From: a virus
Reading direction: 5' to 3' (one strand)
Length of the DNA: 40,334 nt
Virus record (IMG/VR): IMGVR_UViG_3300042934_000428
Coordinates: 1 to 40,334 of that record
Positions 51 through 40,300 of this stretch are shown piece by piece; the first letter of the stretch is position 1; every line of letters starts with the position of its first letter. The position numbers and the translations under genes were made by a program. Under the pieces are notes generated by a model. The model made no database searches. It was not told where the DNA came from and saw only the letters and a list, made by a program, of their open reading frames with translations.

Positions 51-350
51 ATGGATGCTCGGAAGTCGCCTTTGAGGGCGGTGGAGCCTGGCGAGAAGCC
101 GGCGCGGAAGATCACGTCGGTGCTCGAGGCGGCGGAGCAGGGTTCGCGGCTGGATGAGCTCGTGCAGATGCGTCGGGTGATTGCTCGGGCGCTGGATAAC
201 GAGAACACGTCGCCTCGTGATTTGGCGGCGTTGTCGCGTCGGCAGATTGAGATCTCGAAGGAGATCGAGGCGTTGAAGCGTCAGACGGCTGAGGAGGCTG
301 CGGATGCCGCCCACGTCTCCGATGAAGCGTTCGACGCGGAAGCTATCTGA
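51..350 (+). CDS. terS: Terminase small subunit
   Basis: 99 aa. The protein has a basic N-terminus, a central helix-rich block (LDELVQMRRVIARAL, then SPRDLAALSRRQIEISKEI) and an acidic tail. That block is the pattern of actinophage small terminases, which bind cos DNA and hand it to the large subunit. I chose the ATG at 51 because GGAGG at 38-42 is 8 nt upstream; the GTG at 42 and ATG at 45 lie on or too close to that site. It overlaps terL by 47 nt, a sign of translational coupling. It is first in the late operon. Confidence 0.8.
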   Translation: MDARKSPLRAVEPGEKPARKITSVLEAAEQGSRLDELVQMRRVIARALDNENTSPRDLAALSRRQIEISKEIEALKRQTAEEAADAAHVSDEAFDAEAI

Positions 351-1836
351 GGTTGCCCGGCATGTTGTGATCCCGACCGGGATTGTTTCGACGGGTTGGC
401 CTGCTGTCGAGGCTCGGATTCGTGAGTTCGGTGACGAGTTCGACGAGTGGCAGCGTGGCGCTTCGAAGGTCTTTCTCGGGAAGCGGGAGAACGGCGACTA
501 TGCCGCCACGGTCGGCGGCATCACGCTCTCCATTCCGCGCCAGGTGGCGAAGACGTACATGGTCGGTCGGATCGTGTTCGCGTTGTGCACGCTGTTCCCG
601 AACTTGACGGTGCTGTGGACTGCTCACCGGACTCGGACGTCATCGAAGACGTTCGGTTCGTTGCGGGGCTTCGCTGGACGCAAGTCGGTGGCTCCGTTCG
701 TTAAGAACATTCGTGCTGTGAATGGTGAGCAGGAGATCGAGTTCACCAACGGCTCGGTGATCATGTTCGGTGCTCGCGAGGGTGGGTTCGGGCGCGGGTT
801 CGAAGAGGTCGACATCGAGGTGTTCGACGAGGCGCAGATCCTCACTGAGAAGGCGCTCGAGGACATGGTCGCCGCCACGAACCAGTCACGTCACCCGCAC
901 GGTGCGTTGCTGTTCTTCATGGGCACACCGCCGCGGCCGGTTGATCCGGGTGAGGCGTTCAAGGCTCGCCGGCGTGACGCTCTCGAGACTGCTGCTGCGC
1001 TGGTTCGCGGCGAGGATGTCGAGTCGGACGCGGTGTACATCGAGTGTTCTGCGGATGCTGATGCTGAACCTGATGATCGTGAGCAGTGGGCGATCGCGAA
1101 CCCGTCGTACCCGCATCGAACGCCGTTGCGGTCGATGCTGCGGTTGCGGAAGAACTTGCCGTCCGACGAGTCGTGGAAGCGTGAAGCGCTTGGCATCTGG
1201 GACAGCGATCAGAGCGGGTCTCGTGCGATCAGCGAGGTGCAGTGGTCGGCGCCCGAGCTCGTCGTGGATGAGGCTCCGGAGGGTGATGCGGCCTATGCGG
1301 TGGCGTTTAGCCTCGCCGGTGACCGTCTCGCGCTCGCGGGTGCTCGGAAGCATGACGACGGCGTGCACGTCGAGATGATCGACGCGCTTGAGGATGAGCG
1401 TGGTGTCGAGTCAGGTCTTTCGGCTCTCGCGGACTGGTTCTGCGAGCGTGACGACACCGGAACACCAAGGTGGCGCCGATCATCGGGCATTGCCCTCTCG
1501 GGCCGGTCGGGCGCACCGGCGCTCGCTCAGCTGCTCCGCGACCGTGGCGTCGCGGACCGGTGGATCGTCCTCCCGACGACACCGAAGTACATCGAGGCGT
1601 GCTCGATGTGGCTCGAGGCGGTTCGGGGGAAGACGGTCACTCACAAGCGTGAGGGTCAGGACGCGCTCGATGCTTCGGTCGCGGTGACGGATACGGACAA
1701 GCGGGGCGGCCTCTCGGCTACGACTCCGGATGGGGATGACACGCCTGTGGAGGCGGTGGCGTTGGCGCATTGGGTTGCGCGTACGTCGCCGTTGAAGCCG
1801 AAGCGTGCGAGTGAGCGGAAGGCGGTCTTCTTGTGA
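304..1836 (+). CDS. terL: Terminase large subunit (packaging ATPase/nuclease)
   Basis: 510 aa. This is the motor that cuts concatemers and pumps DNA into the prohead. The N-terminal ATPase shows a degenerate Walker A (PRQVAKT, about 78-84), Walker B (VFDEAQ, about 173-178) and a coupling-type motif MGTPP (about 206-210). The C-terminal part, about 300-480, should be the RNase H-like nuclease; the Asp-containing stretch near DALDASVAVTDTD fits its last acidic motif. The ATG at 304 has GGAGG at 293-297, spacing 6. It is followed by the portal gene with a GTGA overlap. Length is normal for the family. Confidence 0.93.
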   Translation: MPPTSPMKRSTRKLSEVARHVVIPTGIVSTGWPAVEARIREFGDEFDEWQRGASKVFLGKRENGDYAATVGGITLSIPRQVAKTYMVGRIVFALCTLFPNLTVLWTAHRTRTSSKTFGSLRGFAGRKSVAPFVKNIRAVNGEQEIEFTNGSVIMFGAREGGFGRGFEEVDIEVFDEAQILTEKALEDMVAATNQSRHPHGALLFFMGTPPRPVDPGEAFKARRRDALETAAALVRGEDVESDAVYIECSADADAEPDDREQWAIANPSYPHRTPLRSMLRLRKNLPSDESWKREALGIWDSDQSGSRAISEVQWSAPELVVDEAPEGDAAYAVAFSLAGDRLALAGARKHDDGVHVEMIDALEDERGVESGLSALADWFCERDDTGTPRWRRSSGIALSGRSGAPALAQLLRDRGVADRWIVLPTTPKYIEACSMWLEAVRGKTVTHKREGQDALDASVAVTDTDKRGGLSATTPDGDDTPVEAVALAHWVARTSPLKPKRASERKAVFL

Positions 1837-3287: not shown

Positions 3288-3984
3288 CCTTCTGTCGTCG
3301 TTCAACGCTTCGTCGAACCCGGTAGCGGTTAGGGATGCGCTTTTGCGTTACTTCCCGGATTTCATGGTCGCGTTCGGTGACACGGCTGCGGTCCTCGGGG
3401 CGGATTTCTACGACATGGTTCGTGATCTCCCCCCGAGTGCCGGGACTGTGCAGACGGTGTTCGCGCAGCCGGCGAAGACGAAGCAGTCCGAGGGTGTCGT
3501 TCGCTGGTCGGCGGGTGCTTTGTTCGCGGCTGAGCCGTCGTGGGAGTCGTTCGAGGCGGCACTTCTGGGTGCGTCGCAGCGGCTCATCTTGCAGCCGTCG
3601 CGGCAGACGATCGATCTGATGGCGCAGGCGGACGCACGGTCGGGGCGGATAGCTGCGGTCGGATGGTCGCGGAACGTGCACCCGGAGCGCGCTCGCTCGG
3701 GGAAGTCGTGTGACTTCTGCATCATGCTCGCCGGTCGCGGCCCCGTATACCGGTCGCAGGCCGCGGCAGGTTCCGTGGTCGGGCGCGGTTCCGATCGCAC
3801 CGGATACGACGCTGACGGCAACCGACTCTCGGGCGGCGTCGGTGAGGGCGTGAAGAAGCGGCGCGTGCAGGAACTCGCAGCCGAGTTTCACGACAACTGC
3901 AACTGCACGTCGGTGCCCACGTTCTACGAGGTCCAGGACCGTCCAGGTTCGCGGTACCCGAAAGTACTCGCCCCGATCTCTTAG
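3208..3984 (+). CDS. MuF-like minor capsid protein
   Basis: 258 aa. The C-terminal third carries CDFCIMLAGRGPVY and, about 60 residues on, HDNCNC. This Cys/His signature (CxxC then HxNCxC) is that of the phage Mu gpF-like fold found next to portal genes. MuF proteins are minor head components made with the portal; in related phages the gene is often labelled capsid maturation protease, but I see no clear protease catalytic set here. It overlaps the portal gene by 80 nt. A 5-bp hairpin (AGCCC/GGGCT, 3983-3997) sits at the stop codon. Confidence 0.75.
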   Translation: MATLQQVEEYRTATQTLVTLAHSQLRDLLSSFNASSNPVAVRDALLRYFPDFMVAFGDTAAVLGADFYDMVRDLPPSAGTVQTVFAQPAKTKQSEGVVRWSAGALFAAEPSWESFEAALLGASQRLILQPSRQTIDLMAQADARSGRIAAVGWSRNVHPERARSGKSCDFCIMLAGRGPVYRSQAAAGSVVGRGSDRTGYDADGNRLSGGVGEGVKKRRVQELAAEFHDNCNCTSVPTFYEVQDRPGSRYPKVLAPIS

Positions 3985-4582: not shown

Positions 4583-5515
4583 ATGGCTGTTACCGCAGCA
4601 ACCGTTACCGGAGATTTCTCCGGCTTCCTCAAGCCAGATCTTGCCCAGGCGTACTTCGAAGAGGCCCGGCGCCGCTCCGTCGTGCAGCAGCTCACCCGTC
4701 AGGTGCCGCTTGGCATCAACGGTGCGGAGATCCCGGTCGTGACCTCGAAGCCCACCGCAGGGTGGGTCGCTGAGGCCGGCCAGAAGCCCGCTACCAAGGG
4801 CGCGCTGTCGCTCAAGACCATCACGCCGAAGAAGCTCGCCGCGATCGCGGTGGTCTCGGCTGAGGTCGTCCGCGCGAACCCAGGCAACTACGTCAACCTG
4901 CTCCGTGAGGACATCGCTGAGGCATTCGCAATCGCGTTCGACGCTGCGGCGCTTCACGGCACCAACTCGCCCTTCGGCGCCGGAAACAACATCGACGCGA
5001 CCACGAAGACGGTCGAGCTCGGCACCACTACGAAGGCCAACGGTGGCGTGTATGGCGACATCGTTGCTGGTCTCGCGCTTCTTGTGAACGACAAGAAGAA
5101 GCTGACCGGGTTTGCGTTCGACCGTGTCGTCGAGCCGACGTTCCTCTCGCAGACGGACAACAACGGTCGTCCGCTGTTCGTGGAGACCCCACTCGAGGAC
5201 ACCGCGTCGATTGTGACGCCCGGCCGCCTCATCGGCCGCCCCGCTTTCATCGGCGACGGCGTGTCGACGGCGATCGTGGCCGGCACCCCGAACACAGGCG
5301 GCATCGTCGGCTACGGCGGCGACTGGTCGCAGGCTGTCTGGGGCACCGTCGGCGGCATCAGCTACGACGTGTCGACCCAGTCGACCGTCACCATCAACGG
5401 CGAGCTCGTCTCCCTGTGGGAGAACAACCTCGTCGCGGTGCGTGCTGAGGCTGAGTACGGCTGGCTGGTCAACGACCCGCAGGCGTTCGTCGAGTACACC
5501 AACCACACGGCCTGA
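4583..5515 (+). CDS. Major capsid protein (HK97 fold)
   Basis: 310 aa. It looks like an HK97-fold capsid protein without a long N-terminal delta domain. The N-terminal arm is followed by IPVVTSKPTAGWVAEAGQKP and the loop PKKLAAIAVVSAEVV, then the spine-helix region (LREDIAEAFAIAFDAAALHG), all classical for actinophage capsids. AAGGAG precedes the ATG. The stop overlaps the start of the next small gene (TGATG). A strong hairpin lies about 170 nt downstream and may limit read-through into the connector genes. Confidence 0.92.
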   Translation: MAVTAATVTGDFSGFLKPDLAQAYFEEARRRSVVQQLTRQVPLGINGAEIPVVTSKPTAGWVAEAGQKPATKGALSLKTITPKKLAAIAVVSAEVVRANPGNYVNLLREDIAEAFAIAFDAAALHGTNSPFGAGNNIDATTKTVELGTTTKANGGVYGDIVAGLALLVNDKKKLTGFAFDRVVEPTFLSQTDNNGRPLFVETPLEDTASIVTPGRLIGRPAFIGDGVSTAIVAGTPNTGGIVGYGGDWSQAVWGTVGGISYDVSTQSTVTINGELVSLWENNLVAVRAEAEYGWLVNDPQAFVEYTNHTA

Positions 5516-5679
5516 TGGCTCGGCTGACGCTTCCGGACGCCGGCACGATCATCCACGTCGAGGGCGACCTTGAGCAGACGATGCGTGCCAGCGGTTGGGT
5601 CGATGTGACCCAGGATGAGGCGACTCCGGAGAAGCCGAAGGCGACCCGCAAGCCGGGGCGGCCCAAGAAGTCCGAGTGA
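5515..5679 (+). CDS. Small head-region protein with basic AT-hook-like tail
   Basis: 54 aa. The first half (LPDAGTIIHVEGDLEQTMRASGWVDV) resembles small actinophage proteins found after the capsid gene. The C-terminus is basic and contains KPGRPKK, an AT-hook-like core that could touch packaged DNA. The ATG overlaps the capsid stop (TGATG). The role is unknown; a head decoration or DNA-contact function is only a guess. Confidence 0.7.
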   Translation: MARLTLPDAGTIIHVEGDLEQTMRASGWVDVTQDEATPEKPKATRKPGRPKKSE

Positions 5680-37052: not shown

Positions 37053-37432
37053 CCGAACCACGCCGAGTGCTCATCACCGGCTCACAAACCTGGCCGGACG
37101 AGGCAGAGGTCAAGCGCGTTTTGGATGAAGCGTGGGCCTTCACCGGGCCGTTCGTCCTCGTCCACGGCGCCGCGCGCGGAGTGGACCAGATGGCCGAGAT
37201 CCACCAGGCCGCCCGCTTCCGCCCAACTGAGGCGCACCCCGCCGAGTGGGACCGGTACGGGAAGCGAGCTGGGTACGTCCGCAACGCGAAGATGGTCGCC
37301 CTCGGAGCTGACATCTGCCTCGCGTTCATCCACAACGAGTCACGCGGCGCGACCATGTGCGCGAACCTCGCCGAGGAAGCGGGCATCCCGGCACGCCGGT
37401 ACGTGCTCACCACGAACGGAGACCCCCGATGA
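37049..37432 (+). CDS. SLOG-fold (YspA/cpYpsA-like) nucleotide-binding protein
   Basis: 127 aa. RVLITGSQTWPDEAEVKRVL, then LVHGAARGVDQMAEIH, AEWDRYGKRAGYVRNAKMVA and LGADICLAFIHNESRGATMC, ending in GIPARRYVL. This is the Rossmann-like SLOG pattern of DprA/YspA relatives. SLOG domains bind nucleotides and ADP-ribose-type molecules in antiphage signalling and elsewhere. A phage copy could bind or destroy a signal, but the sequence cannot show the ligand. Confidence 0.82.
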   Translation: MTEPRRVLITGSQTWPDEAEVKRVLDEAWAFTGPFVLVHGAARGVDQMAEIHQAARFRPTEAHPAEWDRYGKRAGYVRNAKMVALGADICLAFIHNESRGATMCANLAEEAGIPARRYVLTTNGDPR

Positions 37433-38130
37433 CCCCCGACCTTCATGACGTGGTGAGAGCCCTCACCGAACCCACCTACGAACACCACTTCCAGAAACGA
37501 GATGACGGTGAGGGAACGACGGTCACGATCGAGTTCCCCGGGCTGCTCGAGCAGATGCGACAGGCAGTCCTGCCGTCAGGGCAGAACGACGGCGCCGGCT
37601 CGTCCAGCGCGAAGCACACCCGTTCGCCGGGAGACCTCGAAGCGATGTACGAGTACCACAAGATGGCTGCTCAGATCGGGTCGTGGTGCCAGATGATCCG
37701 GCTCAGACCGTCACGCGACAGGGTCGCGGACCTGAAAGCTTGGTACGACAAAGCCCGCAGTGTGTTCGCCCCGGAACAGCTCGACTGGTACCGCCGCACT
37801 CTCGCCGGGTGGACGGCCACCATCCGGAACCACCTCGACGGACCCGAGAAGTACGTCCCTCACACCGCCTGCCCCATCTGCAACACCACAGCCTGGGGCG
37901 ACGCGATCAACGGCGGCGACCTCTGGCCCATCGAAGTCCGCTACCGCATCGAAGAGAACGCTCGAGGCGAGGAGATCACGACGGGGCACGTCGCCCGCTG
38001 CCGGGCACCCCAGTGTGGCGCTGTCTGGCACGGGTGGGAAGCAATCGAGGAGCTCGGTAACGAAGTACGTGAAAAGCAACTCACCGCGGTAGGCGCACAC
38101 CCGGAACCTAGTGCGTCTCGCCTCGGATGA
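37429..38130 (+). CDS. Conserved phage protein with zinc ribbon (DUF7341-like)
   Basis: 233 aa from ATG 37429. The first part reads DLHDVVRALTEPTYEHHFQK, a middle helical part contains IGSWCQMIRLRPSRDRVADL, and the C-terminus has CPICNTTAWGDAI and later ARCRAPQCGAVW, a split zinc ribbon. It resembles a widespread actinophage protein (from memory DUF7341). It is the last gene of the early operon and converges on the - strand HTH gene with a 23-nt overlap. Confidence 0.68.
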   Translation: MTPDLHDVVRALTEPTYEHHFQKRDDGEGTTVTIEFPGLLEQMRQAVLPSGQNDGAGSSSAKHTRSPGDLEAMYEYHKMAAQIGSWCQMIRLRPSRDRVADLKAWYDKARSVFAPEQLDWYRRTLAGWTATIRNHLDGPEKYVPHTACPICNTTAWGDAINGGDLWPIEVRYRIEENARGEEITTGHVARCRAPQCGAVWHGWEAIEELGNEVREKQLTAVGAHPEPSASRLG

Positions 38131-38302
38131 TCCGGTGCACCTGAACTGGTGAGAGCGCCGCCGCCTCCGAGATGTGCGTCTTCTTCATCCCAGCGGCGGC
38201 GGCCTCACGGATCAGTTCGTCACGCTCGACGGCGAGACGAGCACGGGCTTCCGCGTTCGCACGTAGCTTCTCCGTCAGCTCGGGGAACTGGTTAGCGGCC
38301 AT
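38108..38302 (-). CDS. Small HTH DNA-binding protein
   Basis: 64 aa from ATG 38302. Helical N-terminus (FPELTEKLRANAEARARLAV), then REAAAAGMKKTHISEAAALSPVQVHRI, a typical helix-turn-helix with recognition helix SPVQVHRIIRG. It is the last gene of a three-gene - strand operon with the two micro-membrane proteins and may regulate it. It overlaps the + strand zinc-ribbon gene by 23 nt. Confidence 0.72.
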   Translation of the reverse strand: MAANQFPELTEKLRANAEARARLAVERDELIREAAAAGMKKTHISEAAALSPVQVHRIIRGETH

Positions 38303-38387
38303 CGCGACGGATCTTCAGGGCGACGACGAGCGCACCGATCGCGACGACGAGGCCGGCGACCGCGAGGATCAGGGTGAGCACTTCCAT
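38292..38387 (-). CDS. 31-aa single-pass micro-protein
   Basis: 31 aa from ATG 38387 (AAGGGAA upstream). EVLTLILAVAGLVVAIGALV is one transmembrane stretch, then a basic tail KIRRDGR. It overlaps the HTH gene by 11 nt. Similar in design to 38456-38548, so the two may form a pair in the membrane. Confidence 0.6.
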   Translation of the reverse strand: MEVLTLILAVAGLVVAIGALVVALKIRRDGR

Positions 38388-38414
38388 GGTGTTCCCTTCT
38401 ACACTGGGAGGAGC

Positions 38415-38445
38415 GGCCCCGGGGTAATTCTTCTACCCCGGGGCC
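38415..38445. terminator. Perfect 12-bp hairpin between the micro-protein genes
   Basis: Arms GGCCCCGGGGTA (38415-38426) and TACCCCGGGGCC (38434-38445), 7-nt loop. It lies between the - strand gene 38456-38548 and the next - strand gene. There is a weak pyrimidine tail on the + side and none on the - side. It would reduce expression of the downstream genes relative to the first micro-protein. Confidence 0.6.
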
Positions 38446-38455
38446 TCTCTGGTTT

Positions 38456-38548
38456 CTAGTCCCGACGCCGTTGGCGCTTCGCTGTCTGCCAGAGGATCAC
38501 CGCGGTCACCAGGTTGATGATCGCGGTGAGGATTCCGATGATCTCCAT
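38456..38548 (-). CDS. 30-aa single-pass micro-protein
   Basis: 30 aa from ATG 38548 with GGAGG upstream. EIIGILTAIINLVTAVILWQ is one hydrophobic segment, then a very basic tail TAKRQRRRD. First gene behind the strong - strand promoter and therefore the most expressed of the cassette. Topology N-out/C-in with a positive tail is likely. Function unknown. Confidence 0.6.
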   Translation of the reverse strand: MEIIGILTAIINLVTAVILWQTAKRQRRRD

Positions 38549-38587: not shown

Positions 38588-38616
38588 AGTCTATCGCGGC
38601 GACACACTAAAGTCAA
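38588..38616 (-). promoter_or_regulatory. Strong sigma70-type promoter (- strand)
   Basis: On the - strand: TTGACT (38616-38611), 17-bp spacer, TAGACT (38593-38588). The best promoter seen in the window. GACACAC repeats (38601-38607, 38624-38630, 23 bp apart) overlap its spacer and upstream side, and inverted arms ACCTCCCC (38571-38578) and GGGGAGGT (38635-38642) flank it. These are operator candidates for the HTH protein of the same operon. Confidence 0.75.
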
Positions 38617-38661
38617 CCGTGATGACACACAATCGGGGAGGTGCCACGACACGCCAAATAG

Positions 38662-38692
38662 TTACACCGATGTAGTTCCCATCCGATATGAT
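38662..38692 (+). promoter_or_regulatory. Promoter upstream of a structured RNA
   Basis: TTACAC (38662-38667), 19-bp spacer, TATGAT (38687-38692; one mismatch from TATAAT) on the + strand. The spacer is long, so the -35 is weak. Transcription would start near 38699, at the first hairpin of the candidate ncRNA. Confidence 0.5.
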
Positions 38693-38696
38693 GGAA

Positions 38697-38764
38697 GGGC
38701 TTAGGTGAAGTGTCCCTAAGCCCAAGAGTTCGAGGCCCCGACTGCCAACGCGGTACGGGGCCTC
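38697..38764 (+). ncRNA. Candidate structured RNA, two hairpins
   Basis: Hairpin 1: GGGCTTAGG (38697-38705) with CCTAAGCCC (38715-38723). Hairpin 2: GAGGCCCCG (38732-38740) with CGGGGCCTC (38756-38764), with an inner TGCC/GGTA pairing. No open reading frame occupies this stretch, and a near-consensus -10 sits just upstream. It could be a free ncRNA, as reported near the right ends of some actinophages, or a structured leader of the genes that follow. Confidence 0.5.
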
Positions 38765-38784
38765 ACTCATGCGCGGAGGTGACC

Positions 38785-38889
38785 ATGCGCTGCATCCTCA
38801 CCCTGACCCTTGGCGCCGCGCTCGCGTTGATCGCCGCCTACCTCTGGCGACCCGCGATCGTGTGGGCTCTAAGCCGGGGAGATACCTGA
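38785..38889 (+). CDS. 34-aa membrane micro-protein
   Basis: 34 aa from ATG 38785 (GGAGG 5 nt upstream). MRCILTLTLGAALALIAAYL is one transmembrane stretch, followed by WRPAIVWALSRGDT. It is the first gene after the structured RNA and is coupled to the next gene by TGATG. Confidence 0.55.
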   Translation: MRCILTLTLGAALALIAAYLWRPAIVWALSRGDT

Positions 38890-38981
38890 TGCATCCCTGT
38901 GACGCTTGCGGCGGCGAGTACACCAGCGCGTTGGCCGCTGCTGAGTGCTGCGACCCGATGTGGGAACGCGGCACCGACTGA
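38889..38981 (+). CDS. 30-aa Cys-rich micro-protein
   Basis: 30 aa, MHPCDACGGEYTSALAAAEC then CDPMWERGTD. CxxC and CC resemble a short zinc knuckle. It overlaps both neighbours (TGATG). Confidence 0.5.
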   Translation: MHPCDACGGEYTSALAAAECCDPMWERGTD

Positions 38982-39145
38982 TGCGCATCCGATTCAGCGT
39001 CGAGCTACGCATCGAACGCCGCCAAGCCGAGACGGTCGAAGAGCCACAGTTCGAACACCGTGACACGGACACCCTCGTCGAGCAGATCGGGCAACCACCG
39101 TACATCGGGTTCGCACCCGCAATGCCCGAAGAACGCACCACATAA
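38981..39145 (+). CDS. Small hypothetical protein
   Basis: 54 aa from ATG 38981. MRIRFSVELRIERRQAETVE then EPQFEHRDTDTLVEQIGQPP; a beta strand followed by acidic loops. Function unknown. Confidence 0.5.
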   Translation: MRIRFSVELRIERRQAETVEEPQFEHRDTDTLVEQIGQPPYIGFAPAMPEERTT

Positions 39146-39203: not shown

Positions 39204-39398
39204 ATGCCCGACTACCCGACCGTAACCCTCGCCGGCTCCGAGTTCATGCGGGTCGGCGAAACCTTGCTCGTCCGCGCAGGCAGCATCCAGGTATGGGCCG
39301 GAATGCTCATCCACAACGCCGAAGACGGACACGTCTACATCGTCGTCGACCCCGCACAGAAGCGGCTCGAACACTACACCGTCCCCGCAACTTCGTAA
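39204..39398 (+). CDS. Small hypothetical protein
   Basis: 64 aa from ATG 39204 (GGAGG about 8 nt upstream). YPTVTLAGSEFMRVGETLLV then RAGSIQVWAGMLIHNAEDGH, and VYIVVDPAQKRLEHYTVPA. A small beta barrel is likely. Repeats A and B flank it, so it may be a mobile or regulated cassette. Confidence 0.58.
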   Translation: MPDYPTVTLAGSEFMRVGETLLVRAGSIQVWAGMLIHNAEDGHVYIVVDPAQKRLEHYTVPATS

Positions 39399-39473: not shown

Positions 39474-39932
39474 CTACATTCGCTCGAGCAGCTGCGCCTT
39501 CTTCGCCGTGAACTCCTCATCGGTCAGGATGCCCTGATCCCGGAGAGCGGCAAGCTTCGCGAGTTGGTCAGCAGCATCTGGTGCGGGTGCAATCCCACCA
39601 TGCGCCTGAGCCTCACGCACAGCATCCCGGATCGCTTCGAAGTCAGGCGCCTGCTTCTTCGTGAAGATCACAGCGTTCTCGTCCTTCGCCGCATCCTGCG
39701 ACTTCCCGAACCCAACCGAGTGCTTCGAAGACTCACCAGATACCGAGAACTGGATGTGCCCATTGACGAGCGCGTTCGCCGGCTTGAACTGAACAGCACC
39801 AATCGACTTCACCGACAGCGCCTTATCCGATCGCCCATGAGTAGCACGACCAAAGAAACCCTCACGGCGAATCACAACAGTCGAACCATCGAACGACAGC
39901 TGACCGTTCACACCCTTGGCCTCAAGCACCAC
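39474..39932 (-). CDS. DUF4429/SHOCT protein
   Basis: 152 aa from GTG 39932 (ATG 39983 gives an extra N-terminal leader, less likely). VVLEAKGVNGQLSFDGSTVV and SIGAVQFKPANALVNGHIQF match the DUF4429 fold. The C-terminus (DQLAKLAALRDQGILTDEEF, then KKAQLLERM) is a SHOCT domain, a short module that is usually oligomerising or DNA-linked. It is transcribed away from the packaging end and against all late genes, so expression in the lysogen is plausible. Confidence 0.82.
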   Translation of the reverse strand: MVLEAKGVNGQLSFDGSTVVIRREGFFGRATHGRSDKALSVKSIGAVQFKPANALVNGHIQFSVSGESSKHSVGFGKSQDAAKDENAVIFTKKQAPDFEAIRDAVREAQAHGGIAPAPDAADQLAKLAALRDQGILTDEEFTAKKAQLLERM

Positions 39933-39994
39933 GAGCCACCCCAATCTGTAGAACCCCGAGGGTACCCGACAACACATCCCCACGGGGAGGGGTC

Positions 39995-40300
39995 ATGGTT
40001 TCATCCCGCACCGGGCTCACCCCCCACCTGAGATTCCGGAAAGCGGTCCTCACGAGGGATCGACGCAACGGGATAACCCACTGCCCCATCGAAGGCTGCG
40101 GAGTCCTGCTCGACTACGACGTCAGCAGACAACCCAACAGCGCCGAACCAGACCACATCATCCCCAAAGCCAACGGCGGCACAGACAACCCCAACAATGG
40201 ACGCGCCATCTGCCGACAATGCAACCAACGACGAGGAAACAGGGGAGACCCGAGGCCCAAAGCGCCGAAAGCACCCCTCCAACCCTCAGCAGGATGGTAG
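39995..40300 (+). CDS. HNH endonuclease at the packaging end
   Basis: 101 aa from ATG 39995 (GGGGAGGGG upstream). CPIEGC (Cys30, Cys35), AEPDHIIPKANGGTDNPNNG (His54) and ICRQCNQRRGN (Cys73, Cys76) form a complete HNH with a zinc finger. HNH proteins encoded just before terS are needed for cos cleavage with the large terminase in several phages. Across the joined ends it lies about 84 nt before terS. The C-terminus is Pro-rich (KAPKAPLQPSAGW). Confidence 0.92.
   Translation: MVSSRTGLTPHLRFRKAVLTRDRRNGITHCPIEGCGVLLDYDVSRQPNSAEPDHIIPKANGGTDNPNNGRAICRQCNQRRGNRGDPRPKAPKAPLQPSAGW

Follow-up and report, generated by a model that had tools for sequence, protein, structure and literature searches.

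In a 40,334-bp virus record of siphophage type (hereafter the window, i.e. the whole stretch of DNA analysed), a 237-bp divergent region close to the right end lies between a leftward micro-cassette on its left and a set of rightward micro-genes on its right. An initial annotation had pointed out in this region a near-consensus TATGAT followed by two stable hairpins with 9-bp stems, and had proposed either a structured non-coding RNA with its own promoter, perhaps of a distinct family like that of phage Giles, or a leader controlling the downstream micro-genes. The question raised by the locus is what such a combination of promoter and hairpins does, and which genes it serves.

A predicted promoter and two stable hairpins near the right end

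The TATGAT and both hairpins are present as described (Table 1). The region 38662-38784 folds with -62.5 kcal/mol, compared to -38.3 +/- 3.4 in 200 dinucleotide shuffles (z = -7.2), none of which was as good, and the most stable of 16,104 75-nt segments on both strands of the genome starts at 38696 (+) and covers the two hairpins. When only the leader was considered, from the -10 element to hairpin 2, the fold z was -4.1 to -4.2. The predicted transcription start, 7-8 nt past the -10 (38699-38700), falls inside stem 1, in agreement with the initial annotation. In total score, the promoter of the module ranks only second on the + strand of the genome because its -35 is poor (GTTACA, with a 20-nt spacer); all promoter scores were obtained with a generic SigA-like matrix. 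On the + strand, nothing with a similar promoter score was found downstream of the module, read through the joined ends as far as ~22 kb, where the virion operon ends. Two elements had been omitted from the initial annotation: a predicted palindromic operator at 38659-38678 and a minus-strand promoter at 38616-38588, which diverges from that of the module.

Table 1. Coordinates of the module and neighbouring features in the window, and of tRNA-like elements in related loci.
Feature	Position	Strand	Remarks
Terminase large subunit	304..1836	+	Resembles the ArV2 terminase region
DUF7341 (PF24030) protein, last rightward early gene	37429..38130	+	Pfam E = 2.9e-11
Leftward micro-cassette, between DUF7341 gene and module	38108..38548	-	ORFs
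HTH protein of the leftward cassette	38302-38108	-	phrog_686, E = 3.2e-5
Two membrane peptides of the leftward cassette	38387-38292, 38548-38456	-	ORFs
Divergent promoter of the leftward cassette, TTGACT-17-TAGACT	38588..38616	-	Top minus-strand promoter of the genome
Predicted palindromic operator, 20 bp, TAGTTACACCGATGTAGTTC	38659..38678	+	8 nt 5' of the -10
-10 element TATGAT	38687..38692	+	Best + strand -10 score of the genome
Hairpin 1, 9-bp stem GGGCTTAGG/CCTAAGCCC	38697..38723	+	At the predicted 5' end
AAGTGTC within hairpin 1	38708-38714	+	Sequence
Hairpin 2, GAGGCCCCG/CGGGGCCTC plus inner ACTGC/GCGGT extension	38732..38764	+	Candidate leader terminator or attenuator without T-tract
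Micro-gene 1, membrane peptide	38785..38889	+	RBS GGAGGTG; start 20 nt past hairpin 2
Micro-gene 2, short Cys-rich peptide	38889..38981	+	ORF
Micro-gene 3	38981..39145	+	ORF listed from GTG 38945; ATG chosen by eye
Micro-gene 4	39204..39398	+	ORF
HNH endonuclease	39995..40300	+	Pfam HNH E = 8.4e-11; last gene before the cos-like right end
tRNA-like element, L097 (ArV2)	4598-4658
tRNA-like element, L114	5550-5613
tRNA-like element, L121	5589-5640
tRNA-like element, L131	5192-5238
tRNA-like element, L181 (Kukla)	2091-2143
tRNA-like element, L193	~1269-1324	-

Hairpin 2 is placed as T-tailed terminators are in relatives of this phage (see below). In the window it is followed by ACTCATG and has no T-tract, as is also the case in Brujita and in locus L055, so that intrinsic termination at this point is doubtful, and termination in the window phage is the weakest step of the model proposed here.

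The gene order in the window would fit a transcript running across cos into the virion genes. The HNH gene is expected to be in the same transcript as the module, and the late operon would have the terminase gene as its first main gene once the joined cos ends are crossed. The cos-like right end (...GCTCGCA) has similar counterparts in the right ends of L003 and L004. Within the presumed late operon, a DUF4429-SHOCT gene (39474-39983, minus strand), with a homologue in Microbacterium phage vB_MoxS-R1, is reversed, which counts against such a transcript. No tRNA genes were found in the window.

The possibility that the hairpins are a bidirectional terminator between the leftward and rightward units, with the nearby -10 being coincidental, has to be considered in this setting, since the stems are nearly symmetric and could also act on the leftward transcript of the SHOCT gene, and a leftward cassette is present on the left side. 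We regard it as very unlikely, however, given that the -10 tops the + strand and has a conserved operator in front, and that a promoter-then-hairpin polarity holds across relatives.

Recurrence of the module in actinophages and prophages

At the nucleotide level, the only relative of the right end was a 129-bp stretch of phage Floof, corresponding to part of the leftward cassette (Floof gp61 region, 77% identity with 38404-38532 of the window). When 400 genomes from the family to which a Curtobacterium genome belongs were searched at the DNA level, the matches were just 25-66 bases long and were taken as chance, and scans of viral contigs with the SHOCT protein and the DUF7341 protein alone returned no relative. 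As a separate observation, the window has a hairpin at 38415-38445 (GGCCCCGGGGTA/TACCCCGGGGCC), between the two genes for leftward membrane peptides, that is matched in place by a Floof hairpin (GGCCCCTGGATA/TATCCAGGGGCC) in which a few pairs are made of other bases; the Floof copy is near gp61-62 and a serine integrase.

Because nucleotide similarity is nearly nil, relatives were gathered by means of the terminase, alignment of the right-end HNH protein and annotated phage genomes. In many of them, a -10-like site with a strong hairpin at most tens of bases behind it was found between the last early gene and the terminase gene, 0.7-2.9 kb before the latter. A common order is seen across diverse actinophages and prophages, i.e. 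a gene for a DUF7341, phrog_1467 or phrog_908 protein (usually the last early gene), a promoter, a small hairpin at the start site, a terminator-like hairpin, right-end micro-genes, HNH, cos and terminase, and in many cases the terminator-like hairpin has an evident T-tail. These modules recur in phages of Microbacterium, Arthrobacter, Brevibacterium, Gordonia and Mycobacterium, as well as in Microbacteriaceae-type genomes, and the isolated phages with related modules include Footloose, Brujita, AGM, ArV2 and Pitbull. In Brevibacterium phage AGM16, the HNH gene is the only one between the module and the annotated cos.

The polarity of this arrangement was evaluated in 60 right ends, taking the strongest hairpin located at most 3.2 kb upstream of the anchor and a promoter score of at least 5. 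A promoter-like site preceded the hairpin on its 5' side in 25/60, versus 10/60 on the mirrored 3' side (Wilcoxon p = 0.001 on scores); the test is noisy because some of the hairpins picked are not those of interest. Starting from DUF7341 in 40 records, a -10, a small hairpin and a terminator were repeatedly observed after the stop codon. With a hairpin score of at least 24 and a -10 score of at least 4, both within 200 nt of the stop, the combination followed 12 of 30 DUF7341/phrog_1467/908 genes but only 12 of 251 other ORFs of the same loci (p = 3e-7), and, in a second set of 18 loci collected with the window DUF7341 protein alone from family- and order-level genome samples, 9/18 versus 5/103 (p = 6e-6). 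In both sets, part of the enrichment simply reflects that an intergenic gap is there. The sets overlap slightly, as the module of L231 is the same as that of L154. The polarity test and the operator match presented below are free of the intergenic-gap weakness.

The leaders of relatives are also structured: the mean fold z was -1.24 in 31 leaders and -0.17 in 93 controls of equal length (p = 4e-5), reaching a mean of -2.9 in the eight leaders of the operator type, with L041 (10-bp stem) at -5.2. Their stems could not be aligned base by base with those of the window, and what is conserved is the architecture, not the sequence; since the leader stem sequences differ among relatives, structure appears to be kept while the letters change. 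With respect to short motifs, counted in a list of 36-45 modules compiled partly by eye, 6-8-mers in 36 leaders were not above shuffles, while among 5-mers AAGTG was present in 17/45 leaders and GTGTC in 14/45, the best value of all 300 shuffles being 13. GTGTC was rarer in controls (10/135; p = 2e-4).

These results bear on the interpretation as a free-standing small RNA of ~65-70 nt that would be made from the TATGAT promoter, terminate at hairpin 2 and target host or phage mRNAs in trans. A strong promoter of its own, a very stable fold and a predicted 3' end at hairpin 2 would agree with this idea, and abundant right-end non-coding RNAs are known in cluster A phages (PMC5712189); but relatives keep the order of the parts and not their sequence, the position is tied to a regulator gene and a downstream operon, and Rfam gave no match at the gathering threshold in the window or in 16 relatives, all of which makes it unlikely. 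Thus, of the structured RNA with its own promoter put forward initially, the promoter-hairpin-hairpin architecture is retained in relatives, while a free-standing RNA family is not borne out, and neither is a distinct family like that of Giles. When the stem-1 pattern was tried as a sequence family, its sole match in viral contigs was an unrelated tRNA-adjacent terminator.

Some further features were noticed in the leaders of relatives. L048 (~1800-1820) and L079 (~1820-1845) have a common loop, CTGATCC, on unlike 6-bp stems (CCGCGA/TCGCGG and CTGCGG/CCGCAG, respectively). An identical leader terminator stem-loop, CCCCACCGTCCTCCGGGCCTGGTGGGG, is present in Footloose (L180, ~1345-1371) and in L041 (~3899-3926), whose leaders differ, which suggests an exchange of parts. 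Several relatives have, shortly 3' of the leader terminator, a small tRNA-like element (Table 1) that is absent from the window; it is built of an acceptor-like stem GGGCTG/CAGCCC, one variable arm and a T-arm with a TTCGA loop, with no D-arm. Neither ARAGORN nor Rfam gave a match in the loci searched, and these elements may represent either degenerate tRNAs or a novel RNA family.

A predicted palindromic operator next to the -10 element

Two prophage loci, L213 and L228, both with a DUF7341 gene, share a 20-bp palindrome just 5' of the -10. The consensus GARTTACACNNGTGTARTTC, built from these two prophages and not from the window, had at up to 3 mismatches a single match in the window, at 38659-38678, with 2 mismatches (0.01 expected); that L213 resembles the window had been noticed before this test, while L228 was found later and independently of that resemblance. 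The predicted operator spans ~ -41 to -21 and thus overlaps the region between -35 and -10. The distance between palindrome and -10 is 5-9 nt in L213, L228, L235-L237, L239, L055 and L056, and 8 in the window.

When 2.9 million viral contigs were scanned blindly for the operator together with a -10, with no protein used, eight stretches were obtained. In three of them (L236, L237 and L239) a gene for a DUF7341 homologue ends at the operator and hairpins follow the -10; L235 also has the hairpins, but its protein match is negligible, in L232 a DUF7341 homologue is encoded close by in another orientation, and the remaining three look unrelated. Three loci fetched by their terminase (L041, L055 and L056) have the palindrome with at most 2 mismatches, DUF7341 upstream and two hairpins downstream, although in L041 the palindrome is found without a clear -10. 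Over all loci, some of which had been fetched by the operator pattern, there were 18 matches (redundant), compared with 0 in eight block-shuffled versions.

Other repeats were observed near this position. Past the DUF7341 stop codon, L220, L222 and L225 have different palindromes near a promoter (ACAGAgcacaatTCTGT, ACCACAACATCTTGTGGT and CTGCTACCttGGTAGCAG), a variation that would be expected if regulator and site co-evolve. In L132 (~5520-5570), tandem TGGCAGAAG repeats are located just 5' of a late-promoter candidate and are possibly a different type of operator.

The DUF7341 protein as a candidate regulator

The neighbourhood and co-occurrence described above point to the DUF7341 protein as a candidate late regulator, which would bind the operator. 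Its gene may start at ATG 37429 or GTG 37357, and its relatives belong to phrog_1467 and, more distantly, to phrog_908, the latter with a weak MerR-like C-terminus. No recognised HTH or MerR domain was found in the window protein, and its structural model (pLDDT 76) matched no solved fold at E <= 0.001. The model is also weakened by the ~550-bp leftward cassette, which in the window keeps the gene and the module apart, and by six loci (L214, L216, L218, L219, L221 and L224) whose DUF7341 genes have no module behind them.

Comparison with known systems

The arrangement resembles that of the Q-qut-pR'-tR' system of lambda, with its 6S leader RNA, in that the gene of the (in our case candidate) regulator is the last early gene, the (here predicted) binding site lies over the -35 and spacer, and one promoter with a terminator, or in the window a candidate terminator, in its leader would serve the genes up to and across cos. 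The position of the qut site of lambda Q is that of the operator in the window, ~ -41 to -21 (PMC6266700). There are also differences: the window has a palindromic operator and a hairpin 1 at the start site, and a leader terminator of the lambda type is represented by clear T-tailed terminators in relatives, while hairpin 2 of the window lacks the T-tract. The predicted leader, of ~65 nt, is also shorter than the late leader of lambda, which has ~190 nt. No match to Q was obtained in Pfam, PHROGs, PDB sequences or the fold search; since no Q homologue was found, and the upstream neighbour is DUF7341, the module is not a member of the lambda-type Q system.

Two hairpins right after a promoter are likewise found in the put elements of HK022, which follow early promoters and are not terminators. 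A similar cis-acting antitermination, in which the two hairpins would make RNA polymerase ignore later terminators with no phage protein involved, would be in line with their location directly 3' of the promoter and with a hairpin 2 that, having no T-tract, is unlike a classical terminator. Nevertheless, in many relatives a T-tail clearly marks the second hairpin as a terminator, and the predicted operator points to a protein regulator, and we find this explanation quite unlikely.

The ~20-bp palindrome in the -35/-10 region and the long spacer recall the operator-promoters of the MerR type, although in our case a MerR-like segment, and a weak one, was recognised only at the C-terminus of the phrog_908 cousins. 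Finally, the right-end non-coding RNAs of mycobacteriophages (Giles, and the cluster A Pleft RNA of L5, D29 and StarStuff) have in common with the module the right genome end, a short non-coding transcript (predicted in our case) and an adjoining strong promoter. The L5/D29 RNA is ~500 nt long, comes from a leftward early promoter and has no evident stem-loop terminator (PMC5712189). In Giles, the comparison covered a 687-bp unannotated gap near the right end (51564-52251), which by inspection had no comparable module.

A possible switch for late gene expression

The module itself is well supported, i.e. the structures, the recurring order of regulator gene, promoter, hairpin 1 and hairpin 2, and the operator in one subgroup. 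From it we infer the start site, termination at hairpin 2, the identity and sign of the regulator, and the late timing. We interpret the element as a promoter under regulation, with an attenuated leader, that drives the late operon (right end, cos and virion genes), with a probability of roughly 0.6, on the basis of the lambda-like order, the AGM16 module with HNH as the only gene in the gap before cos, and the lack of a comparable promoter up to ~22 kb. The initial proposal of a leader for the downstream micro-genes was nearer the mark than a separate RNA, but the operon probably extends past these genes, through HNH and cos, to the terminase and virion genes.

A narrower role, with the hairpins being a 5' UTR that stabilises the micro-gene mRNA or regulates its translation and the virion genes under another promoter, could account for the RBS and micro-gene 1 beginning 20 nt past hairpin 2, and a stable 5'-terminal stem would shield the mRNA. 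This seems quite improbable in view of the T-tailed terminators that relatives have in place of hairpin 2, the module of AGM16, which has only HNH before cos, and the same lack of a comparable + strand promoter from the module to ~22 kb.

According to the late-operon model, the operator would take the place of a good -35 beside the strong -10 (38687-38692), RNA polymerase would start around 38699, at the base of hairpin 1, and would reach hairpin 2 within ~65 nt. In the prophage, or during early infection, transcription would be weak or halted at hairpin 2, yielding at most an RNA of ~65-70 nt. Binding of the operator by the product of the last early gene (the DUF7341 protein), or by another dimeric regulator, would then allow efficient initiation and/or passage through hairpin 2, and transcription would reach the micro-genes, HNH, cos, terminase and virion genes; the regulator might activate initiation, relieve termination, or do both. 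It is conceivable, though doubtful, that actinophages have in common a separate late switch of independent evolutionary origin, in which a DUF7341/phrog_1467/908 protein would bind the palindrome of the late promoter and, together with hairpin 1 and its AAGTGTC-type loop, load onto RNA polymerase and carry it through the leader terminator, in a way similar to lambda Q but unrelated to it in sequence.

Little is known about how actinophages turn on their virion genes, and a review published in 2022 indicated that the late promoters characterised so far are few and called for work on them (PMC9262239). The analysis presented here predicts the exact position of a late promoter, provides a consensus for the operator, describes a leader with a candidate attenuator, and points to DUF7341 and phrog_1467/908, of unknown function, as a candidate regulator family. 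Since isolated phages carry related modules, the model is directly testable.
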